Shown here: piece by piece, positions 71 to 14,284 of the stretch
How positions within the stretch are numbered: position 1 is the first letter of the stretch
How the letters are laid out: the number at the start of each line of letters is the position of its first letter
Source of the DNA: Kiritimatiellota bacterium
GTDB lineage: Bacteria; Verrucomicrobiota; Kiritimatiellia; JAAZAB01
Length of the DNA stretch: 14,642 nucleotides
Assembly: GCA_008636095.1 (NCBI GenBank)
Contig: VSJD01000267.1
Coordinates: 1 to 14,642 of the forward strand
Direction of reading: 5' to 3'
Notes under the pieces: generated by a model
Databases searched by the model: none
Told to the model about the DNA's origin: nothing
What the model saw: only the letters and a program-made list of their open reading frames with translations
Position numbers and translations under genes: made by a program

Positions 71-3000
71 AAATCAGGAGTGAATATGAAAAAAACATGC
101 ATTATTGCCGGTATTCTGCTTTCCATAAATTTCTGCGGCGGCTTTTCGGTTTATGGGGAACAGGCGCCAAATAAAGAAATAAAAAACGGGAAGATACCGG
201 AAGCATTGCCGCTGATTACGATAAGTCCCTCGGGAAAACCCGTAATTGACGGAAAACTGGATGACGCCTGCTGGCAAAATTCCGTTGAAATCTCAACCCT
301 GCCGAACCGGACCGGCGATAAACTTACCGAAGCCACGCTTTTTTTTATAACTTACGACAAGGCAAACCTGTATATCGGCGCCGAGGTCCAGCAGTCATAT
401 CTTGACCCGGTTTATAACCTGCTTGATAAAATAAAACCCTCCGCCGGCAAGCGCGATGACCCCGTTTATTGCGATGATTCCATAGAGGTTTTCCTGATGC
501 CCGGCGATTTTTATTATCAGCTGGTCGTCAACATGGATGGAACCGTCTATGACGCGAAAGGGACGGGCCCGGAATGGAATTCGTCCCTGAAAGCCGTTGC
601 CGCGAAAAAAGGAAAAAGCTGGACGGTTGAAATCGCGATTCCCCTTTCCGATTTGGGCGTGAAAGACCCGGAAGGGCAAACCTGGCGGGCTAATTTCTAT
701 CGCAACAACCCGGCCAAGAAAGAATCGGGTGCCTGGAGTCCTACGGAAAAATCGTTCCATACAACGGCGTCATTCGGGCGTGTGAATTTTTCGTCCCGCG
801 CGCCGGTTATCCGGTGTAAAAATATCAGTCTTAAATCCGGTTCCGCCGAGGTTGGACTTTCCGCCATTACAAGGGAGGCTTTGAAAATTTCGGGCTCGTC
901 GGATGCATTATCAATTGCCCCGGGAACCAATCAGAACATCAATGTTCGCGTAAAGCCCGATAGTGATGGAAACGGACAACTTGCAGTTCTGGCCGGCAAA
1001 AAGGAAATATTCCGCACCCCGCTGTTGTCAATCAAATCGAAGACGTCTGAAATGCTGGCCGAGATAGCCTGCCCCGGAAATACAATTGATATTTTTATCA
1101 ACGGGAAACCGGTTGCTTCGGGCAGGGATTCGGTCAAGGCACCGTTATTACTGGAAGATGACAAAAACGCGGTGGCGTTGAAAATTTCGGGCGAAGCCGA
1201 TTCAATCCCCTCTGGGAAATTTACAATTGCCGGCATTTCGTTTTCCCTGGATGAATGGCTCTGTTCCGACAAGCAGGAAAACAATTGGAATTCGGATTCT
1301 TTTGATGATTCAAAATGGGAGTTGTATAAAGGCAGGAAAGTTCAGACCGGCTTGTTTTTCAGGCATACTTTAATACAAAATCACACTCTTTTCGCGCCCC
1401 AGCTGGAAAAAAACACGCTCTACGTTGCGAATAAAGCGCCGATGTGCACCGCGATCAGGATTGGTTCGCCGTTTAAAAAGCCGTTGGCGGATTATACCTG
1501 CCATCTTGCACTGCCGGAAGGATTGAACATCCCTTTTTATGATCCGGAAAACAGGAGTTGGTACATTTATAAACACAAGCTGTCCAGGAACAGAAAAAAC
1601 GGGAGGACTGAATATACATTCAATTTTGAAAAACCAGTGCCAAAACTGATATATAATTTCGGAGGCCACGTTATAGTTCTTGTTATTTCGCCGGATTTTC
1701 CGGAAGAGCAGGAAAAGAAAACACTAAAAGGGGTTTGCTATATTTCAGGCCGGGGGATGCACGAAATTCCCAGGGAATTTAATATCGCCGTGCTTTCGCC
1801 TTTAAAAGGAATTCAGCCTGAAAATATCGGGATAGGAACGTGGGCCGAAGGTCGCCGTATCAGTCATGCCGAAACAGAAAACATGTTTAAAACTTTCGAA
1901 TCAATGGGTTTGAATCGGCTTGGTTTGTACTTTAGGGCAGGCAGCAACAGCACAACATGCGCAAGCGCATATACAAACATTACGGATGCCGCTAAAAAGG
2001 CGAAGGGAAACAACCTTAAACCCATTTTGTGTCATTACGGAAATCACGACTCGTCGTTTTTTGCGGATATCTTGGCGCAACATCCTGAATATCAGTTAGT
2101 CAATAATACCAACAAACCGCCGGCATGGCATAAGTCCATGTGTCCCGAAGCTTATATGTCTTCTCCGGAGATAAAGAAGCGGGTCGAAGACATGGCTATG
2201 CTTCACGACCGGATAATATACGATCTGGAAGCAGGAATTAAATTTTCCTGCCTGTGTGAAAAATGCCGGGATAATATTGCCAGGGAATTTAAGCACAATG
2301 CAACCCCTTCGGAAAAAGAAGTTTATGAAAAGTATAAGGACCAATTGATCCGGCATCAAGTAAAGGTAAATTACAGGATTTATAATTTTATAAGGGATAC
2401 CGCGAAAAAAGCAAATCCTGATATAAAATGCGGCGTATACAGCGGCTACTCGGACACTCCCCCCGAAGTCTACGGCATGGATTGGACACTTTATAGAGAT
2501 ATTGTTGATATGCCGTCGGCGGGATATAGCGAGTCTCCGGCCATAATTAAAGAAACGCGAAAATTAATCGGCAACCATCCCCTGTACACCGGACTGATCC
2601 TTAACAGCAATCTGTATGAATATCAGTATGCCGACCAGAATATAAAGGCCCGGCTGTTCAGTCAGATGATTCAGGGCGGATTTGGCGGCGTGCATTTTTA
2701 TTCCTGGGAGGAACTGAACGGCATCGGCATGACCGCGGTTGCTGAATTCGCGCGCGGCGTTGCGGCTTATGAGCGCTTTCTAAAAGAACAATATGAGATT
2801 CCAAACGATGGATTCGTTACCGGAACCGCTGGTGAAAACATACATGTTTATAAAAAGGGCAACGAATATCTTTATATTGTCATGAACCCATCGCCAAAGG
2901 CGAAGGAGATAACGGTCAAAGCGCCCCCAGGTATCCCGGATGCGGAAATTTATGATTTCTATGCCGCCAAAAAACATGAACAAAGTGGAGCATATAAAAT

Positions 3001-3102
3001 CCAAGTGCCATCTTATGACGCGGCGCTCTTGCACATAAGCAAGCCGGGGACATTTAACCTCCCTTTTCTTCCAAATAAACACAAATAATTCTTGCATATT
3101 AA
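71..3102 (+). repeat. Direct repeat, copy A of the duplicated secreted-protein gene
   Basis: Similarity to 6604-9641 starts at AAATCAGGAG, just before the start codon. It runs through the whole coding sequence and continues past the stop through AATTCTTGCATATTAA. Upstream of the ribosome binding site the two copies are unrelated. The copies are in the same orientation and enclose the lacI cassette. By eye most stretches are about nine-tenths identical in sequence, with clear divergent patches near 1830-2060 and 2690-2710. Confidence 0.85.
86..3088 (+). CDS. Secreted protein with CBM9-like domain and glycosidase-like TIM barrel (paralog A)
   Basis: The start is the ATG at 86, five bases after AGGAG (76-80); the GTG at 80 overlaps that site and is unlikely. 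The 1000-residue protein opens with a signal peptide (MKKT, then a hydrophobic run to about residue 22, cleavage probably after Gly24). Residues ~50-236 match the family 9-like carbohydrate-binding fold (PDGKLDDACW-type opening as VIDGKLDDACW, then DDSIEVFLMPG and WTVEIAIPLSDLG). Beta-sandwich regions follow; one contains FDDSKWE, typical of galactose-binding-like folds. From ~580 a TIM-barrel, glycosidase-like region runs to ~895, with DLEAG (Glu715), CLCEKC (Cys722/724/727) and YSWEELNG (Glu875/876). A C-terminal beta domain ends the protein. Glu715 and Glu875 are candidate catalytic acids, which is inference. I cannot name a GH family. It probably acts outside the cytoplasm on a glycan. A near-copy lies at 6619-9627. 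Confidence 0.85.
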   Translation: MKKTCIIAGILLSINFCGGFSVYGEQAPNKEIKNGKIPEALPLITISPSGKPVIDGKLDDACWQNSVEISTLPNRTGDKLTEATLFFITYDKANLYIGAEVQQSYLDPVYNLLDKIKPSAGKRDDPVYCDDSIEVFLMPGDFYYQLVVNMDGTVYDAKGTGPEWNSSLKAVAAKKGKSWTVEIAIPLSDLGVKDPEGQTWRANFYRNNPAKKESGAWSPTEKSFHTTASFGRVNFSSRAPVIRCKNISLKSGSAEVGLSAITREALKISGSSDALSIAPGTNQNINVRVKPDSDGNGQLAVLAGKKEIFRTPLLSIKSKTSEMLAEIACPGNTIDIFINGKPVASGRDSVKAPLLLEDDKNAVALKISGEADSIPSGKFTIAGISFSLDEWLCSDKQENNWNSDSFDDSKWELYKGRKVQTGLFFRHTLIQNHTLFAPQLEKNTLYVANKAPMCTAIRIGSPFKKPLADYTCHLALPEGLNIPFYDPENRSWYIYKHKLSRNRKNGRTEYTFNFEKPVPKLIYNFGGHVIVLVISPDFPEEQEKKTLKGVCYISGRGMHEIPREFNIAVLSPLKGIQPENIGIGTWAEGRRISHAETENMFKTFESMGLNRLGLYFRAGSNSTTCASAYTNITDAAKKAKGNNLKPILCHYGNHDSSFFADILAQHPEYQLVNNTNKPPAWHKSMCPEAYMSSPEIKKRVEDMAMLHDRIIYDLEAGIKFSCLCEKCRDNIAREFKHNATPSEKEVYEKYKDQLIRHQVKVNYRIYNFIRDTAKKANPDIKCGVYSGYSDTPPEVYGMDWTLYRDIVDMPSAGYSESPAIIKETRKLIGNHPLYTGLILNSNLYEYQYADQNIKARLFSQMIQGGFGGVHFYSWEELNGIGMTAVAEFARGVAAYERFLKEQYEIPNDGFVTGTAGENIHVYKKGNEYLYIVMNPSPKAKEITVKAPPGIPDAEIYDFYAAKKHEQSGAYKIQVPSYDAALLHISKPGTFNLPFLPNKHK

Positions 3103-3639: not shown

Positions 3640-4641
3640 ATGAAAATCTCCGCGTCTATAGCGACGACCCGCGATATCGCCGTGATGGCGGGCGTCAATC
3701 AAAGTACCGTCTCGCGGGCCTTGGCAGGCTCCTCGCGCATCGGCGCCCGAACCACGAAGAAAATCTGGAAGGCCTGCCGCACATTGAACTTCGTCCCCAA
3801 CGCCATCGCAAGGGGGCTGCGCGAGCGGCGCAGTCGAACCCTGGCCGTGCATATCCCCTTCGGCGCCGAAACCGTCCTGGCCGACCCTTTCATCCCCGAA
3901 TTTCTCGCAGGTGTCAGCCAGGAGGCCGGCCGCCGGGGGTATGCCGTGATACTCTCGTATCCCGACCCGGAGCGATGCGGCAACGAGTTTGTCAACCTGG
4001 TCAAAAGCCGGCGGGCGGATGGTATCATTATCACTACCTCCCTGCGCCAGGATCCCCGGTTTGCACTGTTGGCCCGCGAGCGCATTCCCTGCGTGGTGGC
4101 GCGCCAGGATGTCCGGCTGGGTGCCATGATGGCGTGTGTGGATATCGATAACCGGGAAATTGGCTGTGATGCGGTGCGCTATCTGCTGACACAGGGTCAT
4201 CAGCGGCTGGGGATCATCACCGGAAAAGTTGATAGTTTGGCGGCGTATGACTTCCTTGCCGGATGCCGCGACGCGCTGAGAGAACGTGGCTTGCGGGTCA
4301 GGGACGCGCGGATCAAGCAGGCGCCAGTGACCTTTCAAGCCGCCTATGAGGCCACCCGTAAAATCATGGCGGAACGGCCGGCACCGGACGCCATCCTCGC
4401 AAATACGGCGCTGACAATTTTCGGCGTTCTGGCCGCGATCCGGGACGCCGGCAAGACCATCACGGCAATGGGAATAGATTCGCCGCTCCTGCGCGGACTG
4501 TATCCTGAATTGCCGCGGATTCAATCCCCGATTTTGGAGCTGGGCAAAACGATGACCGCCACGCTGATTGAAATGCTGACGACCGGACGTCGGCCTGAGT
4601 CGGAAACAATGTTGCGCGCCCGCATAGTGCCACGCGCATAG
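3640..4641 (+). CDS. LacI-family transcriptional regulator
   Basis: This 333-residue protein has the usual family length. Residues ~9-28 (TTRDIAVMAGVNQSTVSRAL) form the helix-turn-helix. The hinge FVPNAIARGLRERRS (51-65) matches the LacI pattern of Pro-Asn and Ala-Arg contacts in the minor groove. The rest is a periplasmic-binding-protein-like effector domain that would bind a sugar or sugar derivative. ATG 3640 is the only start that keeps the whole DNA-binding domain. It lacks a Shine-Dalgarno sequence and sits just 11 bases past the -10 box, so translation from a nearly leaderless message is likely. It probably represses its own promoter and the genes behind it; the inducer is unknown. Base composition is visibly richer in G+C than in the secreted-protein genes on either side. 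Confidence 0.93.
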   Translation: MKISASIATTRDIAVMAGVNQSTVSRALAGSSRIGARTTKKIWKACRTLNFVPNAIARGLRERRSRTLAVHIPFGAETVLADPFIPEFLAGVSQEAGRRGYAVILSYPDPERCGNEFVNLVKSRRADGIIITTSLRQDPRFALLARERIPCVVARQDVRLGAMMACVDIDNREIGCDAVRYLLTQGHQRLGIITGKVDSLAAYDFLAGCRDALRERGLRVRDARIKQAPVTFQAAYEATRKIMAERPAPDAILANTALTIFGVLAAIRDAGKTITAMGIDSPLLRGLYPELPRIQSPILELGKTMTATLIEMLTTGRRPESETMLRARIVPRA

Positions 4642-4654
4642 AAAGGAAGTTACC

Positions 4655-5455
4655 ATGGATACGTTTGTACGTTTCACAAGTTCGCCCTGGGGTTACCGGA
4701 TGATGAGTTTTGAGGAGCGCTGCCGCCATCATCGCGAACTGGGTCTGAAGCATATTTGCGGCTATTTCGGGCCGCATCCCGGCGCGTTTCCCGCCGATAG
4801 CGCGCCGCGGGATCGCACGGCCTTGCGTGGCTTGGCGGACAAATACGGATTGCGCTTTGCCAGTATGAATGCCGACGGCGACTTTACGGTCACCCTGGGC
4901 GTGGAGGACCAGATCGCCCTGTGCAAACGGCAGATTGATCTGGCCGCCGAGTTCCAGCCGGAAGTAATCATTGTGTTTGCCGGCTGGCAGCCGCGGGAGG
5001 ATAACGCGGTGTACAAACAGGTGGCGGAAGCGCTCAAGTCCGTGAGCCGGCATGCCGCCCAGCACCATCTGACTGTTGCGCTGGAAAATCACGGTGGCCT
5101 TACCGCAACCGCCACCCAGCTCAACCGCATCATGGCGGCCGTGAACGAGCCGAACATCGGAATCAACTGCGATCCGGCTAATTTCGCCATGTATGGGACC
5201 GATCCGCTGAGCGAGTTGCAGGCGCTGGAATATCCCGTGGTGTTCACGCACCTGAAAAGTTTAAAACATATCAACGGAAAGAAAGTCTATTGCCGCCTCT
5301 CTCAGGGCGAGATCAGCTATCTCCCCATCCTGCAGTGGCTCCGGGATCATTACGCTGGTTTCTATGCGCTGGAATACGAGGAGCCGGCCGACGTCCTGGC
5401 AGGTACCGAGGACGATTTCCGGACCCTGAGCGATTGGCTGAGGAATGTCCAATAA
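4655..5455 (+). CDS. Sugar phosphate isomerase/epimerase-like TIM barrel
   Basis: This 266-residue protein belongs to the xylose isomerase-like/AP endonuclease 2 superfamily. The metal-site residues of that fold are visible: Glu144 in VALENHGG, Asp173 in GINCDPANF, His199 in VFTHLKSLK and Glu240 in YALEYEEP. Members isomerise or epimerise sugars or keto-inositols, or dehydrate related compounds, in the cytoplasm with a divalent metal. The exact substrate cannot be read from sequence. The start has a good ribosome binding site (AAAGGAAG, 4642-4649) and lies 13 bases after the lacI stop, so the genes are co-transcribed. Partnering with the next-door dehydrogenase suggests an oxidation/isomerisation pair acting on one sugar. 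Confidence 0.88.
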   Translation: MDTFVRFTSSPWGYRMMSFEERCRHHRELGLKHICGYFGPHPGAFPADSAPRDRTALRGLADKYGLRFASMNADGDFTVTLGVEDQIALCKRQIDLAAEFQPEVIIVFAGWQPREDNAVYKQVAEALKSVSRHAAQHHLTVALENHGGLTATATQLNRIMAAVNEPNIGINCDPANFAMYGTDPLSELQALEYPVVFTHLKSLKHINGKKVYCRLSQGEISYLPILQWLRDHYAGFYALEYEEPADVLAGTEDDFRTLSDWLRNVQ

Positions 5456-5505
5456 TCTAAAGATTATCTCTCGCAAAGGCACTAAGACAAGAAAAGGAGA
5501 ACCGC

Positions 5506-6567
5506 ATGCAAACACAAGCTAAAGCCGTCATCATTGAGCGTCCGCGCCAAGCCGTAGTGAAGACCATCCGTCTGCCTGAGAGCGATGATGCCAGCATCAT
5601 CATTCGCACGGTCTATAGCGCCATCAGCACCGGGACGGAGATCAAGGTATGGAACGGTCGTACCGGCAAGCTGGGCGGAGCGCTCTGGTATCCGCTGGTG
5701 CCCGGTTACGAGCAGGTGGGCGTGGTGGAATATGTGGGACCAAAAGCCTATAAGACCGCCACGGGTGAAACCCTCAAGGAAGGCGATCGTGTCATGGCCA
5801 ACGAGGTGCGTTGTTATCCGGATTATTGCGCGGCCTGGGGCGGGCAGGTCGGGATGTCTGTGAAAAATCCGAAGACCGCTGGATCACCATTCGACATGCC
5901 GGCCAAAATCCCTGACGGCGTCAGCTTTCAGGACGCCGTGGCGGCCTACTTGGCGGCGGTGGCGCACAAGGGCATCGTCAAGGTGGGTATTCGAACGGGC
6001 GAGACGGTGGTCGTCATCGGCGTCGGCGCGGTGGGTCTCTCCGCCGCGCAGTTGGCTAAGCTGGCGGGCGGCAAGGTGATCGTGGTCGAGGAGAGTCCGT
6101 GGCGGGCCGAGCGCGCCAAGCCCTGTTGCGACCACATGATTTGCGACAACGCCGGCCACGCCTCCGCCATCGCAGCCGTCAGCGATATCACCGACGGCCG
6201 CATGGCGGACGTGGTCATCGAATGTAGCGGGGACTCCAACGTGGTCAATTTCGCCTGCCAGTATATCCGCGAGGGTGGCTGGGAACGGGACGATGACGGC
6301 GGACGAATTCATCTGCAGGGGGATTATCCGGATCCGATCGCCATCACGCAGTACATGCACTGGTTCAACCGGAACCTGCGCATCTCCACGAGTTGCGCGG
6401 TGCGGCCCGGCAGTAAGGAGCACATTCTGAATCTCATGCGCGAAAAACGATTCAATGCGGCTGTGCTCTGGGATAAGGAAATTGCGCTGGACGCCGTGCC
6501 GGCCGAGTATCCGGAGCTGGAAGCGCATCGGGCCACGCGCATGAAAACGCTGATACGCTGGGAGTGA
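5506..6567 (+). CDS. MDR-superfamily (alcohol dehydrogenase-like) dehydrogenase
   Basis: The 353-residue protein has the medium-chain dehydrogenase/reductase layout: a GroES-like N-terminal domain with STGTE (41-45), GYEQVG (67-72) and GDRV (93-96), then a Rossmann domain with GVGAVG (172-177). Glu195/196 at the end of the second strand suggests NAD rather than NADP. The usual catalytic Cys-His-Glu set is altered: the GHE position is GYE, and the four-Cys structural zinc lobe is absent. Zinc dependence is therefore uncertain. It probably oxidises a hydroxyl of a sugar or polyol, or reduces the reverse substrate. AAAGGAG (5493-5499) precedes the ATG. The gap to the upstream gene is 50 bases and to the next gene 51, consistent with one operon. 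Confidence 0.85.
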   Translation: MQTQAKAVIIERPRQAVVKTIRLPESDDASIIIRTVYSAISTGTEIKVWNGRTGKLGGALWYPLVPGYEQVGVVEYVGPKAYKTATGETLKEGDRVMANEVRCYPDYCAAWGGQVGMSVKNPKTAGSPFDMPAKIPDGVSFQDAVAAYLAAVAHKGIVKVGIRTGETVVVIGVGAVGLSAAQLAKLAGGKVIVVEESPWRAERAKPCCDHMICDNAGHASAIAAVSDITDGRMADVVIECSGDSNVVNFACQYIREGGWERDDDGGRIHLQGDYPDPIAITQYMHWFNRNLRISTSCAVRPGSKEHILNLMREKRFNAAVLWDKEIALDAVPAEYPELEAHRATRMKTLIRWE

Positions 6568-6603
6568 TGATCAAACATGCATACTGGACGGCTAAATAGA
6601 TTC

Positions 6604-9600
6604 AAATCAGGAGGGAATATGAAAAAAACATGCATAATTGCCGGTATTCTGCTTTCAATAAATTTCTACTGCGGATTTTCAGTTTGTGGGGAACAGGCAC
6701 CAAACAAAGAAATAAAAAACGGAAAGATGCCGGAAGCATTGCCGTTGATTACGGCAAGTCCCTCGGGAAAACCTGTAATTGACGGGAAGCTGGATGACGC
6801 CTGCTGGCAAAATTCCGTTGAAATCTCAACCCTGCCGAACTGGACCGGCGCCAAACTCACCGAAGCCACGCTTTTTTTTATAACTTACGACAAGGAAAAC
6901 CTGTATATCGGCGCCGAGGTCCAGCAATCATATCTTGACCCGGTTTACAACCTGCTTGATAAAATAAAACCCTCCGCCGGCAAGCGCGATGACCCAGTTT
7001 TTTGCGATGATTCCATAGAGGTTTTCCTGATGCCCGGCGATTTTTATTATCAGCTGGTCATCAACATGGATGGAACCGTCTATGATGCGAAAGGGACGGG
7101 CCCGGAATGGAATTCATCCCTGAAAGCCGTTGCCGCGAAAAAAGCGAAAAGCTGGACGGTTGAAATCGCGATTCCGCTTTCCGATTTGGGCGTGAAAGAC
7201 CCGGAAGGGCAAACCTGGCGGGCTAATTTCTATCGCAACAACCCGGCCAAGAAAGAATCGGGTGCCTGGAGTCCTACGGAAAAATCTTTCCATACAACGG
7301 CGGCATTCGGGCGCGTGAATTTTTCGCCCCGCGCGCCGGTTATCCGGTGTAATAATATCAGTCTTAAATCCGGTTCCGCCGAGGTCGGACTTTCCGTCAT
7401 TACAAGGGAGGCTCTGAAAATTTCGGGCTCGTCGGATGAATTATCAATTGCCCCGGGAACCAATCAGAACGTCAATGTTCGCTTAAAGCCCGATAGCGAT
7501 GGAAACGGACAACTTGCTGTTCTGGCCGGCAAAAAGGAAATATTCCGCACCCCGCTGTTGTCAATAAAATCAAAGACATCTGAAATGCTGGCCGAGATAG
7601 CCTGCCCCGGAAATACAATTGAGATTTTTATCAACGGAAAATCGATTGCTTCGGGCAGGGATTCGGTCAAGGCACCGTTATTACTAGAAGATGATAAAAA
7701 CGCGGTGGCGTTGAAAATTTCGGGTGAAGCCGCTTCCATCCCCGCCGGGAAATTTACAATTGCCGGCATTTCGTTTTCCCTGGATGAATGGCTCTGTTCA
7801 GACAAGCAGGAAAGCAACTGGAATTCGGTTTCGTTTGATGATTCAAAATGGGATCTGTACAAAGGCGGAAAAGTTCAGACCGGCTTGTTTTTCAGGCATA
7901 CTTTAATAAAAAACCACACTCTTTTCGCTCCCCAGCTGGTAAACAACACGCTCTACGTTGCGAATAAAGCTCCGATGTGCACCGCGATCAGGATTGGTTC
8001 GCCGTTTGAAAAGCCGTTGGCGGATTATACCTGCCATCTTATTCTGCCGGAAGGATTGAACATCCCGCTTTATGATCCGGAGAACAGGGCTTGGTACAGT
8101 TACAAACATAAGCTGTCCCAAAACAGGAAAAACGGGACGAATGAATATACATTCCATTTTGAAAAACCGATGCCAAAACTGAAATATAATTTCGGAGGCC
8201 ACGTTATAGTTCTTATTATTTCTCCGGAATTTCCGGAAGAACAGGAAAAGAAAACACTAAAAGGGGTATGCTATATTTCAGGCCGGGGGATGCACGAAGT
8301 TCCCGGGGATTTTAATATCGCCGTGCTTCCATCTTTAAAAGGAATTCAGCCTGAAAATATCGGGATATCGGCATGGATCGGGTTTCGTGACAAGCGCAAC
8401 AGCACTGCTGAAACGGAAAGCATGTTTAAATCTTTCAAGTCAACGGGCTTTAATTGGCTTGGGATTGATTTTAGGGCAGGCCACGACGGCACAACATGCG
8501 CAAACGAATATAAAAAAATTAAGGACGTTGTTAAAAAGGCAAAGGAAACCAACCTCAAACCCATTTTGTCTCTTTACGGAAATCACAGCTCGTCGTTTTT
8601 TTCAGATATCGTAGCACAGCATCCCGAATATCAGCTCGTCAATAATGCCAACAAACCGCCGGCATGGCATAAGTCCATGTGCCCCGAAGCTTATATGTCT
8701 GCTCCGGAGATAAAGAAGCGGATCGAAGACATGGCTATGCTTCACGACCGGATAATATATGATCTGGAAGCAGGAATTAAATCTTCCTGCCTGTGTGAAA
8801 AATGCCGGGGCAATTTCGCCCGGGAATTTAAGCTCAACAAGACTCCTTCGGAAAAGGAAGTTTATGAAAAGTATAAGAATGAATTGACCCGGCACCAGGT
8901 GAACATAAATTTCAGGCTTTATAATTTTATGAGGGATACCGCGAAAAAAGCAAATCCTGATATAAAATGCGACGTGTACAGCGGCTACGCTAATAATCCC
9001 CCCGAAGTCTACGGTATGGATTGGACGCTTTATAGAGATATTGTTGATATGCCGTCGGCGGGATATAGCGAGTCTCCGGCCATAATTAAGGAAACGAGAA
9101 AATTAATCGGCAACCATCCGCTGTGTACCGGACTTATCCTTAACAGCAATCTGTATGAATATCAGTATGCCGATCAGAACATAAAGGCCAGGCTGTTCAG
9201 CCAGATGATTCAGGGCGGATATGGCGGCGTGATCCTGTGGTCCTGGGACGAACTGAACGGCATCGGCATGACCGCGGTTGCTGAATTCGCGCGCGGCATC
9301 GCAGCTTATGAGAGTTTTCTAAAAGAACAATACGAGATTCCAAACGATGGATTTGTTACGGGAACCGCTGAGGAAAACATACATGTTTATAAAAAGGGCA
9401 ACGAATATCTTTGTATTGTCCTGAACCCATCGCCCGAGGTGAAGGAAATAACGGTCAAAACGCCGCCCAGTATTCCGGATGCGGAAATTTATGATTTCTA
9501 TGCTGACCGAAAACATGGACAAAGCGGAGCATATAAAATCCGGGTGCCATCTTATGACGCGGCGCTCTTGCACATAAGCAAGCCGGGGATATTTGACTTC

Positions 9601-9641
9601 CTTTTTCTTCCGAAAAAACACAAATAATTCTTGCATATTAA
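6604..9641 (+). repeat. Direct repeat, copy B of the duplicated secreted-protein gene
   Basis: This is the counterpart of 71-3102 in the same orientation, starting at AAATCAGGAG and extending about a dozen bases past the stop codon to the single TTAA at 9638-9641. Similarity continues weakly through GGCT and ATA just after that TTAA. The other copy is interrupted at this point by the miniature element. Confidence 0.85.
6619..9627 (+). CDS. Secreted protein with CBM9-like domain and glycosidase-like TIM barrel (paralog B)
   Basis: The start is ATG 6619, three bases after a strong AGGAGGG (6609-6615). The frame stays open upstream to 6577, but those 14 codons precede the ribosome binding site and have no match in paralog A. 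The protein has 1002 residues with the same order as paralog A: signal peptide, CBM9-like domain, beta sandwiches, TIM barrel with DLEAG and CLCEKC, and a C-terminal beta domain. It is two residues longer because of the patch after ENIGI, where AWIGFRDKRNSTAETE replaces TWAEGRRISHAETE. A second change is GVHFYSWEE to GVILWSWDE, near the presumed end of the barrel. These patches may line the active site, so specificity may differ. It ends the LacI-controlled operon and probably supplies its substrate from outside the cell. Confidence 0.87.
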   Translation: MKKTCIIAGILLSINFYCGFSVCGEQAPNKEIKNGKMPEALPLITASPSGKPVIDGKLDDACWQNSVEISTLPNWTGAKLTEATLFFITYDKENLYIGAEVQQSYLDPVYNLLDKIKPSAGKRDDPVFCDDSIEVFLMPGDFYYQLVINMDGTVYDAKGTGPEWNSSLKAVAAKKAKSWTVEIAIPLSDLGVKDPEGQTWRANFYRNNPAKKESGAWSPTEKSFHTTAAFGRVNFSPRAPVIRCNNISLKSGSAEVGLSVITREALKISGSSDELSIAPGTNQNVNVRLKPDSDGNGQLAVLAGKKEIFRTPLLSIKSKTSEMLAEIACPGNTIEIFINGKSIASGRDSVKAPLLLEDDKNAVALKISGEAASIPAGKFTIAGISFSLDEWLCSDKQESNWNSVSFDDSKWDLYKGGKVQTGLFFRHTLIKNHTLFAPQLVNNTLYVANKAPMCTAIRIGSPFEKPLADYTCHLILPEGLNIPLYDPENRAWYSYKHKLSQNRKNGTNEYTFHFEKPMPKLKYNFGGHVIVLIISPEFPEEQEKKTLKGVCYISGRGMHEVPGDFNIAVLPSLKGIQPENIGISAWIGFRDKRNSTAETESMFKSFKSTGFNWLGIDFRAGHDGTTCANEYKKIKDVVKKAKETNLKPILSLYGNHSSSFFSDIVAQHPEYQLVNNANKPPAWHKSMCPEAYMSAPEIKKRIEDMAMLHDRIIYDLEAGIKSSCLCEKCRGNFAREFKLNKTPSEKEVYEKYKNELTRHQVNINFRLYNFMRDTAKKANPDIKCDVYSGYANNPPEVYGMDWTLYRDIVDMPSAGYSESPAIIKETRKLIGNHPLCTGLILNSNLYEYQYADQNIKARLFSQMIQGGYGGVILWSWDELNGIGMTAVAEFARGIAAYESFLKEQYEIPNDGFVTGTAEENIHVYKKGNEYLCIVLNPSPEVKEITVKTPPSIPDAEIYDFYADRKHGQSGAYKIRVPSYDAALLHISKPGIFDFLFLPKKHK

Positions 9642-9666: not shown

Positions 9667-10557
9667 TCAGTTGAATTCAACCGGAACGGCACATTGCCTG
9701 GCAACTATTTGTTTGAAATATTCCATGGACGCTTTGTCTGGAATTTTATTCGACATCAATGAAGCGGAACGCCCGATGCGTATCAATTTTTCATTGCCCA
9801 GCGGGTGATACGGCATCAAATTGACGCATTGAAGATTGATCAGCTTTTCCGCTATTTTTGCTATGCCGTCGGCATGATCATTACGTTGATTCAGATCGGG
9901 GATGATCGGACAGCGTAACATTATTTTTGCGCCGGATGTATCCAGTTTTTGCAGATTGTCGAGAATCGGCGTCAGTGGCACACCTGTATATTTAAGATGG
10001 CGTTCCGGATCGGTTTCCTTGAGATCGAAAAGGAAGATGTCAACCAATGCTAATGTCTTTTCTAATGATTCCCATGCGCAAAACCCGCATGTATCAAGAC
10101 AGTTGTGCAATCCGCAGGATTTAGATTTGCGAAGCAATGCGGTTGTGAATACAGGCTGAAACATCGGTTCTCCGCCTGAAATGGTCAATCCGCCACCTGA
10201 GTTGTCGTAAAAAATCTTATCTTTCATAACTTCCATTATTATCTCATCCACGCTCATGGATTTGCCGATCAGCTCGCGGGCCCCGGCGTAGCATGTCTCC
10301 ACGCATTTTCCGCAGCGGACACAGCACGAACGATCAAAAATCCCATCATGGACGGCATGGGAAGTGCAAGCCATTGTGCACTTGCCGCATCCGATGCATT
10401 TCTCCGGAACGAACGATATTTCCGGCTTGGCCTCCTGCGATTCCGGATTGTGGCACCAAAAACATCGCAGCGGACAGCCCTTTAAAAACACCGCCGTACG
10501 GATGCCAGGGCCATCGTGAATCGCAAATTTCTCGATGTCGAATACCAGGCCGTTCAT
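9667..10557 (-). CDS. Glycyl radical enzyme activase (radical SAM)
   Basis: This 296-residue enzyme would use S-adenosylmethionine and a [4Fe-4S] cluster to abstract a hydrogen from the radical glycine of the enzyme encoded next to it. The radical SAM motif is CPLRCFWC (Cys28, Cys32, Cys35), preceded by the activase signature IHDGPGIRT. A ferredoxin-like insert carries two more four-cysteine sets: Cys54/57/60/64 and Cys79/82/85/89. SGGEP, the SAM-contact motif, follows. This is the architecture of activases of the glycerol/diol dehydratase and decarboxylase class, not of the shorter PflA that lacks the insert. The ATG at 10557 overlaps the stop of the upstream gene by four bases (ATGA), which implies translational coupling. 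An in-frame extension to 10641 lies wholly inside that gene and is unlikely. Confidence 0.95.
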   Translation of the reverse strand: MNGLVFDIEKFAIHDGPGIRTAVFLKGCPLRCFWCHNPESQEAKPEISFVPEKCIGCGKCTMACTSHAVHDGIFDRSCCVRCGKCVETCYAGARELIGKSMSVDEIIMEVMKDKIFYDNSGGGLTISGGEPMFQPVFTTALLRKSKSCGLHNCLDTCGFCAWESLEKTLALVDIFLFDLKETDPERHLKYTGVPLTPILDNLQKLDTSGAKIMLRCPIIPDLNQRNDHADGIAKIAEKLINLQCVNLMPYHPLGNEKLIRIGRSASLMSNKIPDKASMEYFKQIVARQCAVPVEFN

Positions 10558-13298
10558 GATGTCTTCCCGTAGATGTTGCGACTGATGAATTCGTCCTGCC
10601 ATTCGGGCGATAAAGCCACGAACTTGGCCGAGAAACCGCAAACCCTGACAACCAGATCCTGGTGCTTTTCAGGATGCTTGCGTGCGTCAAGCAACTCCGC
10701 CTTGCTGACGCAATTGAGCTGGAGCAGTTGGAGTTTCGCGTCTGCAAACGCACGCTCGAACTGGGCAAGCAGATGTGGACTGACTCCGTTACCAGGCAAG
10801 ATGATGTTCAAAAGTGAATTGCCGGCGCATTTCGTCAGGTCGAGCGCCGCAACGCTGTTGATTGTGGAAGTGATATCGTTGATGCGTCGGACTCGCGATG
10901 GGGTTATGCCGTGCGCGAGCACATCCCCGGTATGACGCCCATCCGGCGTGGCTAACATTTTCTCACCCCAGAACTTGAACTCGCGATAGACCCAATAGCC
11001 AAGGTCGAAGGTTCCACCGCGTTCATTCACCAGATCTCTGGTGTGTTCGTAGAGATCGTCATGAAACCGCCGCGCCAGTGCGTTGGACTCTGGGGTGTTG
11101 TCGCCGAAATGTGGCATAGACAAGACTTCGGCCCAGAGGGGTTCATATCCTTTCCAGTTGGCCCTGACTGCCGCCAGAAGCTCCGTAAGAGTATGGTGTT
11201 TTGTCTCGAAGCAGAGCTTGCGAATCACCAGCAGTGAATCGATGATATTGGCAAAGCCAAACATTGGGAGTGCATGCGGATTGTAGCGTCCGCCGCCTGC
11301 CGTGAAATCCTTGCGTTTCTCCAGGCAGTCCGACATGCAGGCTGAGAAAAATGGCGATGGGTTGACTTTAGGCCAAACAACACCGTTGCGCCCTTTCATC
11401 GCGCACATCTGCCGAACAACCTTGATGATGTTACCGAACAACCGCTGATAGACCTCTTCGAAGTTTTCCGCTTCGTCAAGTTTATCGCAGATGATGTCAA
11501 CCTTTAACATCTCAGGGCAATCGTGGATCGACGCTTCCAGAATGCGCATCAGGCTGAAATAGTCGCCCGTGGCCATGTTCTCATAGCTTTCAAGGACGAC
11601 ATCCCAACATCCTGAACACACATAGTTGCGGGCATTCTCCAGTCGTTTGCCTGCCCGGACTTGCGCGGGAATCACACAGTCGTCGTTTACAAGGTTGATT
11701 ACGCTGCGTCCGCTGAGGATATCACAATTTATCATTTCGAGATATTCAGGGGTTGTATCCTTCCCGAAACGGCAATGCAGTTTGGGATAGATCAATTTCA
11801 GTTCGTGATGGGCTTTCAGGAACATGCGCGTGATGTCATTGAACACTTCATTGCCGTGTTCATCGCAACCGCCAAGCGTGAAGGTTATTTCCAACTCGTG
11901 GGCAGCGATGCCGCCGCCACCCGCCACTACTTGCTTGTCCTTGTCGTATAGGCAATCGGCTGGGAGCAGGAAGCGGCAGATGAGATCGTAGGCCTCTTCC
12001 TTGGTCAAGCACCCACTTCCGATGTCTTGGCGGTAAAGCTCTGACAGCATCATGTCGGGACGTCCCAGGGAATTCGTCGCGAGCCCCTCAATTGAACCGC
12101 AGACTTCGCGCAGGAACCACAGTGTGTTCAAGCCTTCATAAAAAGTTTCCGGTTTGTGCCACGGCACTTTGCGGGCGCTTTGCGCAATCATCCCCAGAAA
12201 ACGCTGTTGTGTTTCATCAGTGGTGTCTTTCAGCAACTTCTCGGCGGCATCCGCAAATCTCCCGGCAATTGCCTTAACCGCAAGCAGTCCGCGCATTGCA
12301 CATTCAATGAACTCGGATTCATCCTTGGAAGTGCACAGTTTCAAGGCCGCTTCCGCCTGCGCATAGATATTTTCCAATCCGTTTTTCAGGACATTGGAGA
12401 ACGAGGGACAATGGTGCATCAGATCCACATAAGGGCCGCAGCAAAGGAAAACTCTCTGATTTATCCGCTCCATGAAAAGATCGTAGTCTTCCGGATTGAA
12501 ATCGCGAAAGAGATGATAGTTGCGATTGAGAAGCCAGCGGCCGGGGCTGCGTACGTTCCAGCCGCCATTCGTCCCCATCTCGAAATAGAAGGGAGAGTCC
12601 TTGAAGACGACCGGGCGGAAGCTATCAGCGAACACCTCATATTGGGCGGCCTTCAACTGCATGGCATTGAGACCGGGATGCTCAATGTCGTATTTGTCCA
12701 TCAGATCCCAGAATGGTTGCGACACCGTTTCGAGTTTGTGCTCGATGGCGTATTTCCAGTCTCCAGCCAGGGAAAGATGCTTGCCGGACTCGTTGTCCGC
12801 CGGGGAGACGAACATATTGTCCACCGGTCCAATCATGCCGCCGGCATAGGCGAAGGAGTATGCGCGCACGGCAATCACATTGCGTCCGGACTTCACCAGG
12901 CGGCCCGGGACAACATAGCTCCGGGGCAAGTCCCAAACGCTCCGGTCAAAGCCTTTGCCGGTGGAGCCGACCTGCTCGCCGTTGAAATAGGTGATGTCGG
13001 TCTTGTCAACTGCGCCGATACGGAGGGTCAAGTCTTTGCCAGCCCAATTTTTCGGGACATCGACATTCTTGCGGAACCAGAAAACGCCGCTGAACCGCAT
13101 GCCCTTGGAAGTCCAGCTTCCTGGCAGGCTCATAGTCTCCCAGCGGGAGTCGTCGAAGGATTCCGAGGCCCAGCCTTTGTCCAACGCACCGTTGCCAGGG
13201 TCGGCTGAAAATTGAATCTTCTCCTCTTCTTCTTTTTGGGAATAAAAAGCCCTCAACTCTTTTCTCAATTTTTCAATGCTCATTGTCAATATTTCCAT
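10554..13298 (-). CDS. Glycyl radical enzyme with N-terminal carbohydrate-binding jelly roll
   Basis: The 914-residue protein joins two parts. Residues ~38-180 form a galactose-binding-like sandwich: FDDSRWETMSLPGSW, then FRKNVDVPKNWAGKDLTLRI, YFNGEQVG, NVIAVRAYS and LAGDWKY. This is the pattern seen in GH2 N-domains and the inserted domain of sialate O-acetylesterases. From ~200 on it is a glycyl radical enzyme: SPFYFEMGTNGG, LGGCDEHGNEVFND (475-488), NDDCVIP (538-544), the thiyl-forming Cys564 in GCWD and radical Gly888 in RVCGFSAKF. Most family members end their active site in GCxE; here the acid is Asp566. That and the length set it apart from pyruvate formate-lyase, whose pair of adjacent cysteines is missing. 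The reaction is unknown; a dehydration or C-X lysis of a sugar-like substrate is inference. ATG 13298 has no clear ribosome binding site; ATG 13283, ten bases after GGAA, is an alternative. Confidence 0.93.
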   Translation of the reverse strand: MEILTMSIEKLRKELRAFYSQKEEEEKIQFSADPGNGALDKGWASESFDDSRWETMSLPGSWTSKGMRFSGVFWFRKNVDVPKNWAGKDLTLRIGAVDKTDITYFNGEQVGSTGKGFDRSVWDLPRSYVVPGRLVKSGRNVIAVRAYSFAYAGGMIGPVDNMFVSPADNESGKHLSLAGDWKYAIEHKLETVSQPFWDLMDKYDIEHPGLNAMQLKAAQYEVFADSFRPVVFKDSPFYFEMGTNGGWNVRSPGRWLLNRNYHLFRDFNPEDYDLFMERINQRVFLCCGPYVDLMHHCPSFSNVLKNGLENIYAQAEAALKLCTSKDESEFIECAMRGLLAVKAIAGRFADAAEKLLKDTTDETQQRFLGMIAQSARKVPWHKPETFYEGLNTLWFLREVCGSIEGLATNSLGRPDMMLSELYRQDIGSGCLTKEEAYDLICRFLLPADCLYDKDKQVVAGGGGIAAHELEITFTLGGCDEHGNEVFNDITRMFLKAHHELKLIYPKLHCRFGKDTTPEYLEMINCDILSGRSVINLVNDDCVIPAQVRAGKRLENARNYVCSGCWDVVLESYENMATGDYFSLMRILEASIHDCPEMLKVDIICDKLDEAENFEEVYQRLFGNIIKVVRQMCAMKGRNGVVWPKVNPSPFFSACMSDCLEKRKDFTAGGGRYNPHALPMFGFANIIDSLLVIRKLCFETKHHTLTELLAAVRANWKGYEPLWAEVLSMPHFGDNTPESNALARRFHDDLYEHTRDLVNERGGTFDLGYWVYREFKFWGEKMLATPDGRHTGDVLAHGITPSRVRRINDITSTINSVAALDLTKCAGNSLLNIILPGNGVSPHLLAQFERAFADAKLQLLQLNCVSKAELLDARKHPEKHQDLVVRVCGFSAKFVALSPEWQDEFISRNIYGKTS

Positions 13299-13459: not shown

Positions 13460-14284
13460 ATGCCTAATGGGAGCAAAACCTTGCTGCGGCAGCTTAATCC
13501 GTTTCTGGATTTGAGTTTCAGCAACGTTTCCATTGACAATTCTTATTACCGCGCCACCGCCGCCTGGCCAGTCAACATCTTAGCGCTGGGCATCAAAGAC
13601 GACGGGAAAGGCAAGGACTATTTTGAAAACAGCGCAGAGAATCAGCGCCTGCCATTTTTGGCAAACCATGTCTACTTCATCCCATGCGGCCTGAAAATTA
13701 GTTTTGAGGTGACTCCGGGGATCACCGCCATCTCGCTGCATTTCAACCTGACATTCTTCCATGGTATTGATATTTTTTCCGACGTCAAGCATTGCGAAAT
13801 GCGCCATGACCAGAAGCTTGTCGCCCGCTTTCACGCCATTTTGTCTGAGAATGATAATCTGAAGGCGATTTGCGCGCTGAAAATGGAAGTAATGCGGTTT
13901 TGCCTGTCAATTTGGCCGGGAAATTTGGAGCGGCTGACTCCCGTCATCCGGAAATACGAGCCGGTTTTCCGTTATGTGCGCGAGCATGGCGACGCAGAAT
14001 TTACTGTTGGTGGCTTGGCGAAGCTGGCCGGGCAGAGGCAAAATGTTTTTTCGCGGAACTTCAGCCGGGACATTGGCAAGTCGCCCAAAGAGTTCCTCCG
14101 GAACGACCTACTCAAAAAGATCGTTGCCCGTCTGCTTATACCTCAAATGAGCATTAAACAGACGGCCGCCGAACTGAATTTCAGCTCGGAATTTTACATG
14201 TCGCGCTTTTTCAAGAAACACACCGGACTTTCCCCGAGCGAATACCAGCGCAAATTCACCGCTAACACAGTTTGTGATCAATGA
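13460..14284 (+). CDS. AraC-family transcriptional regulator
   Basis: This 274-residue protein has an N-terminal ligand-sensing, cupin-like region of about 150 residues. Two helix-turn-helix units follow in residues ~181-268. The first spans FTVGGLAKLAGQRQNVFSRN; the second spans SIKQTAAELNFSSEFYMSRF and is followed by the family signature FKKHTGLSPSEYQ. It is transcribed divergently from the glycyl radical operon, the usual arrangement for a pathway-specific activator. The likely ligand is the substrate of that enzyme or a relative (inference). No Shine-Dalgarno sequence is seen before ATG 13460; the earlier ATG at 13450 is in another frame and stops after five codons. Confidence 0.92.
   Translation: MPNGSKTLLRQLNPFLDLSFSNVSIDNSYYRATAAWPVNILALGIKDDGKGKDYFENSAENQRLPFLANHVYFIPCGLKISFEVTPGITAISLHFNLTFFHGIDIFSDVKHCEMRHDQKLVARFHAILSENDNLKAICALKMEVMRFCLSIWPGNLERLTPVIRKYEPVFRYVREHGDAEFTVGGLAKLAGQRQNVFSRNFSRDIGKSPKEFLRNDLLKKIVARLLIPQMSIKQTAAELNFSSEFYMSRFFKKHTGLSPSEYQRKFTANTVCDQ

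Follow-up and report, generated by a model that had tools for sequence, protein, structure and literature searches.

The background to the locus reported here comes from two enzyme groups. Among glycyl radical enzymes (GREs), a Glu deprotonates the substrate hydroxyl in isethionate lyase (PMC6453916), and YbiW and PflD are described in PMC12441222 as cleaving 1,5-anhydroglucitol-6-phosphate and 1,5-anhydromannitol-6-phosphate, with which the titles of PDB entries 8id7 and 8id0 concur. Among CE20 O-acetylesterases, a loop of the ancillary (X448) domain lines the esterase active site (PMC12313940). Here, we analyzed a 14,642-nucleotide stretch of a Kiritimatiellota bacterium (contig VSJD01000267.1, assembly GCA_008636095.1), hereafter the window, in which one minus-strand gene encodes a GRE carrying a CE20-type ancillary domain, inserted after the first helix as judged by alignment. 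This arrangement of domains in an oxygen-sensitive radical enzyme is real and recurs in relatives, and it appears to be new within an otherwise known enzyme kind. A previous sequence-only reading of the window had noted an architecture new to its author, and we likewise found no publication, within the open-access literature, of a GRE with the enzyme-shaping insertion domain of CE20 esterases. The observation made in that reading is confirmed by our results, and its interpretation is supported only in part.

Domain architecture of the fused glycyl radical enzyme

The minus strand of positions 10554..13298 forms a single 914-codon open reading frame (ORF), while the plus strand there is rich in stop codons. 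The gene and its parts are as follows:

10554..13298, minus strand: GRE with inserted CE20 ancillary domain, 914-codon ORF, likely start at 13283 (residue 6)
13239..13283, minus strand: N-terminal GRE helix, residues 6-20, common to non-fused relatives by alignment (helix 2-26 in the structure model)
12714..13229, minus strand: inserted jelly roll, CE20 ancillary (X448) domain, residues 24-195
12915..12959, minus strand: loop residues 114-128 (W122, R126, Y128), counterpart of the loop lining the CE20 active site
10917..12713, minus strand: GRE barrel, residues 196-794, with the Pfam PFL-like match at 295-767 (10998-12416)
12414..12416, minus strand: His295, paired with residue 164 (His) of B12-independent glycerol dehydratase (1r8w)
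11601..11609, minus strand: Cys564-Trp565-Asp566 (GCWD), the thiyl Cys and the acidic residue at C+2
10617..10916, minus strand: glycyl radical domain, residues 795-894, with Gly888 at 10635-10637 (RVCGFSAKF)

Three Pfam matches exceeded their curated cut-offs: GH2_N at residues 57-146, PFL-like at 295-767 (289.6 bits) and Gly_radical at 795-894 (58.7 bits). The protein therefore unites the features of the GRE superfamily, namely a PFL-like barrel with the thiyl Cys564 and a C-terminal Gly_radical domain with the radical Gly888. In an alignment of the best 120 of 598 homologues (the query with 119 others, named below by P-numbers), Cys564, His295, Asp415, Asp539 and Arg788 each occur in 120/120 rows, and Gly888 is invariant across 82 aligned rows. 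The NCBIfam scan gave nothing over cut-off: the best match was the PFL2-3 subfamily TIGR01774 (301.5 versus 678.2 bits), and among the named GRE equivalogs (CutC, HypD, sulfopropanediol dehydratases, decarboxylases, PFL) the best score was 255.2 against 1000.

Besides the window's protein, seven of these 120 homologues carry the inserted domain. Residues 6-20 are common to fused and non-fused proteins, 112/112 non-fused rows are blank across 21-180, and homology is back by about residue 190. Since residues 6-20, upstream of the domain, align with non-fused GREs, the alignment places the domain by insertion after the first GRE helix, not by N-terminal fusion. The structure model gave the same order of parts, with helix 2-26 followed by a beta-sandwich and the GRE fold; its mean predicted local distance difference test score was 90.5, dropping below 60 in places within the inserted domain. 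No hydrophobic N-terminus was detected in a crude hydropathy test. Thus the jelly roll of sialate O-acetylesterase/GH2 type and the full radical domain with Cys564 and Gly888, both proposed in the sequence-only reading, stand, and the hydropathy result agrees with its view that there is no signal peptide; the N-terminal fusion it described has to be redrawn as an insertion.

Kinship of the inserted domain with CE20 esterases

Both fold and sequence assign the inserted domain to the CE20 ancillary (X448) type. It keeps 56/61 CE20-conserved positions, many of which may be fold residues, and in the loop near the CE20 active site W122 is present in 7/8 fused GREs and R126 and Y128 in 8/8. The usual setting of X448, inserted in an SGNH hydrolase domain whose cleft it shapes, is not found here: the host is a GRE, and the SGNH catalytic domain of CE20 esterases (PF03629) is absent from its Pfam matches up to E 0.1. 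We hold the anatomy and the domain kinship with high confidence; the architecture, the CE20 kinship, the insertion point, the conservation of both parts and the presence of an activase with an overlapping start are established at the level of sequence.

Two further observations concern the esterases themselves. Among 112 esterase matches to the domain, 105 lacked a hydrophobic N-terminus in the crude hydropathy test (some being fragments), so these enzymes may work in the cytosol on oligosaccharides that the cell has taken up. One homologue, P0198 (1357 residues), combines a PF03629 esterase domain, GH2-type domains (PF02836, PF16355, PF18565) and a match to the ancillary domain.

Active site and proposed reaction

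At C+1, Trp is found in 113/120 rows, and Asp566 occupies C+2, the position of the acid in GRE eliminases, where Glu (65 rows) or Asp (42 rows) occurs in 107/120. The solved GREs in the alignments listed (1r8w, 9rco, 8id0, 9f3w, 5i2a, 2f3o, 8yjo) have GCVE, and wherever the alignment extends that far (1r8w, 9rco, 5i2a, 2f3o, 8yjo), His295 pairs with a His. These residues lead us to propose an eliminase whose pocket has changed, and we place moderate confidence in the eliminase chemistry. In the proposed reaction, the activase would generate the radical at Gly888, from which it would pass to Cys564; the thiyl radical would take a hydrogen from a hydroxyl-bearing carbon, Asp566 (Glu in most relatives) would deprotonate that hydroxyl, and His295 would aid the leaving group on the adjacent carbon. 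A carbonyl product would result, as from a dehydratase or C-O lyase. No reaction was found for this unnamed, mostly GCW D/E clade.

Within the GCW clade, nine rows have CWG and three have CWS, with the C+2 acid lost; these GREs may carry out other radical chemistry or be inactive. Selenocysteine was considered, as several genome matches carried an internal-stop flag, and was rejected: the stop was terminal in each correctly oriented flagged row checked, and in rows of correct orientation the catalytic Cys had an ordinary codon, the wrong-strand rows L024, L027, L038, L047, L048 and L008 being left out.

Evolution and distribution of the inserted domain

In a tree of the domain (122 rows), the GRE copies (9 rows, 8 distinct) form one clade within the esterase domains (support 100/93, the bootstrap being not fully settled). 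On the tree of GRE bodies (98 rows, without the partial P0053 and P0100-P0120), the fused state needs four changes, at least three of them forced by starred branches. Quick trees of a 40-row subset rejected the grouping of all eight fused GREs (p-AU 2.5e-52) and also that of the seven GCWD fused GREs (p-AU 0.0045). The inserted domain of P0009 is 71% identical to that of the window's protein, whereas its GRE part is 54% identical and, from residue 196 onward, mostly resembles non-fused GCWE relatives. Judging from this disparity, transfer of the domain from one GRE gene to another is most likely, the breakpoint lying close to the domain's C-terminal end. Among the six nearest fused relatives, domain identity is 68-82% and GRE-part identity 69-78%.

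Two proteins without the domain, P0012 and P0014, group with the fused GCWD proteins, sharing 71-75% identity with P0003-P0007 and 54-63% with five other non-fused rows compared. P0012 has the residues ADPG at the offset where the domain begins in five fused proteins, and is the only one of 112 non-fused rows with ADPG in its first 60 residues; the N-terminus of P0014 resembles the linker more weakly. These sequences are suggestive, not proof, of secondary losses of the domain, possibly with linker remnants.

The fused GRE is rare. In four overlapping samples, a fused copy was found in 1/193 genomes of relatives, 2/387 of the phylum sample (the window's genome, G000, and G340), 1/345 of the class and 1/197 of G340's class, with two candidates per genome scored in the 387 and 345 samples and up to four in the 193 and 197 samples, so that a lower-ranking fused copy could be missed. 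The G340 product is part of P0009 and hence adds no fused member. GRE matches free of the domain were commoner at E 1e-150, occurring in 18 further genomes of the 345 and in 37/197. A first contig scan gave no match; a later scan with the fused alignment gave seven loci, namely the contig-truncated fused GRE of G340 (L050) and six esterase-type ORFs bearing GQSNM without the GCW motif. Searching with a profile built from the eight fused proteins, with the 7992 most word-sharing candidates scored, revealed no new fused protein in the best 120 of 599. The window's genome contains five GRE-family matches. In its assembly (87% complete) the only domain match is the GRE itself, so neither a further copy nor a donor gene was found. 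The four further GRE-family matches (C342, C330, C206, C251) do not match the inserted domain.

Activase, regulator and genomic neighborhood

The fused GRE gene is flanked by the following genes:

9667..10557, minus strand: radical SAM GRE activase (TIGR02494, 328.8 bits versus cut-off 174.35; start set by similarity to the L070 homologue)
13460..14284, plus strand: AraC-family regulator, divergent from the GRE gene
3640..9627, plus strand: convergent set of LacI regulator, xylose-isomerase-like TIM barrel, zinc-type dehydrogenase and CBM9-containing protein

The ATG of the activase overlaps the stop of the GRE gene as ATGA at 10554-10557. This overlap and the TIGR02494 match predict the role of cognate activase expected of a GRE partner. 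The divergent AraC gene is located where the sequence-only reading had placed it. That reading also took the nearby glycan genes as a pointer to the substrate; because these plus-strand genes converge on the GRE operon, their coordinates make them look like a separate unit. The LacI, TIM-barrel and dehydrogenase genes are flanked by a pair of CBM9-containing proteins, at 80-3088 and 6577-9627 (both plus strand); each has about 1000 residues, and their close similarity looks like the result of a recent duplication.

Neighbors were surveyed in the window, 20 regions around related GREs and three esterase-side loci by single-linkage clustering, the family of each cluster being checked on one or two members. 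The GRE cluster was recovered in 19/21 GRE-bearing sets, antisense ORFs having been picked at the GRE in L060 and L062. Among the clusters listed, an AraC-type regulator occurs at 8 loci, an activase at 6, a short-chain dehydrogenase/reductase and a flavin adenine dinucleotide (FAD)-dependent oxidoreductase at 4 each, and an aldo-keto reductase at 3, all as raw counts without a random-region baseline. A non-fused relative of the same family (G005, 64%) adjoins GH127, a GDSL esterase, a GH5-type protein, an FAD oxidoreductase and a Gfo/Idh-type protein. These neighborhoods fit sugar or polyol breakdown and name no particular substrate. With low confidence, the neighbors of related genes suggest that the substrate is most likely a small imported sugar, polyol or anhydrosugar.

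Possible roles of the inserted domain and alternative explanations

We favor, at a probability of about 0.5, a glycyl radical eliminase with the chemistry proposed above, in which the domain inserted after the first helix would be an optional accessory that captures or orients a carbohydrate-bearing substrate, by analogy with its place over the CE20 esterase cleft. This last step is the weakest, and our confidence in the role of the domain and in the substrate is low. A stronger version, rather unlikely in our judgment, would make the domain a transferable substrate-capture lid and have the enzyme perform radical C-O cleavage on an oligosaccharide or glycoside, the substrate bearing carbohydrate and being perhaps acetylated or glycosidic; if true, a single kind of lid would serve both an enzyme that removes acetyl groups by hydrolysis and one that works by radical chemistry. 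Several findings weigh against the favored eliminase with a substrate-capturing accessory. Part of the clade has no acid at C+2 (Gly in 9, Ser in 3 and Asn in 1 of 120 rows), and the neighbor counts lack a baseline. In glycerol dehydratase, His164, His281 and Asp447 are functional residues, the latter two being substrate contacts; because Ala407 and Thr577 sit at His281 and Asp447, the pocket differs from that of glycerol dehydratase. On the domain side, Fl8CE20_II has Arg313 and Lys370 facing or binding its esterase domain, and their counterparts here are Ala96 and Val159. Non-fused relatives have GRE parts up to 70% identical, and the domain is found on both GCWD and GCWE GREs, hence is not bound to one active site; for these two reasons we do not take the domain to define the substrate. 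Finally, no co-adaptation of the GRE body to the domain was detectable in P0009, which showed 4 convergent sites (0-5 in 36/39 clade members and 19-24 in the remaining three).

Much of this would equally suit a structural, oligomerization or docking module without a substrate role, set in an ordinary GCW-clade eliminase: the close non-fused relatives, the exchange of the domain without sign of co-adaptation, the two lost CE20 contacts and the probable losses in P0012 and P0014 all speak for it. The retention of CE20-conserved positions including W122, R126 and Y128 seemingly goes beyond the needs of a scaffold, subject to the share of fold residues among them, and we consider such a module a serious contender at less than even odds. 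It is improbable that the domain is a neutral passenger, inserted in frame by chance, tolerated and decaying. Its rare and patchy occurrence, confined to G000 and G340 in the genome searches, and the probable losses would agree with this, but among the six nearest fused relatives it is about as conserved as the GRE part, and its copies form one clade, so it has been retained over long divergence and transferred. Several homologues bear the automatic names "formate C-acetyltransferase" or "pyruvate-formate lyase"; that the enzyme is a true pyruvate formate-lyase seems very improbable. Least credible of all is an assembly or frame artifact joining an esterase gene to a GRE gene. The window does come from a 357-contig assembly and the named relatives are metagenome-assembled genomes, but the frame is uninterrupted, a genuine GRE helix lies upstream of the domain, and the identical junction recurs in seven other proteins with GRE parts 54-78% identical to the window's.

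The system looks like a natural domain-transplantation experiment, with one insertion domain in two unrelated catalytic folds, a hydrolase and a radical barrel, together with close relatives lacking the domain as controls, another GRE subfamily that received it and probable secondary losses. Deleting or swapping the domain thus offers a way to test what CE20 ancillary domains do. The analysis also draws attention to a GRE clade without a name, mostly with GCW D/E, which turns up repeatedly in Lentisphaerota-type genomes and in several of them lies close to carbohydrate genes.

Comparison with known systems

With the CE20 O-acetylesterases that contain an X448 domain (Fl8CE20_II 9H4U, PpCE20_II 9EGA, XacXaeA 7KMM), the fused GRE shares the ancillary domain; it differs in its radical-enzyme host, in the absence of an SGNH catalytic domain by Pfam and in the Ala and Val at Arg313 and Lys370. 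Over the GRE body, identity is 16-26% with the solved GREs compared and 22-26% with most eliminases. Compared with glycerol dehydratase (1r8w), propanediol dehydratase (5i2g/9rco), CutC (5fau) and HypD (6vxc), at about 22-25% identity, it has GCWD instead of GCVE, the inserted domain, and changed residues at the two substrate contacts. As an aside on such entries, the molecule name of PDB 8iof, "benzylsuccinate synthase alpha subunit," conflicts with its title, N-methyl-cis-4-hydroxy-D-proline dehydratase.

YbiW and PflD (8id7, 8id0, 8yjo) are GREs acting on a sugar-derived ring, and 8id0 is the top phmmer match in the PDB (232 bits). The new substrate class envisaged in the sequence-only reading would therefore not be new to GREs, as these enzymes already cleave sugar-derived 1,5-anhydrohexitol-6-phosphates. 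They are 22-26% identical to the fused GRE and do not carry the inserted domain, and no phosphotransferase or kinase family was found among the eight window ORFs scanned with Pfam. Enlarged GREs have a precedent in Klebsiella CutC (9f3w, 1150 residues), which also possesses an extra N-terminal part; that part is weakly GRE-like, whereas the extra part of the fused GRE is a jelly roll.
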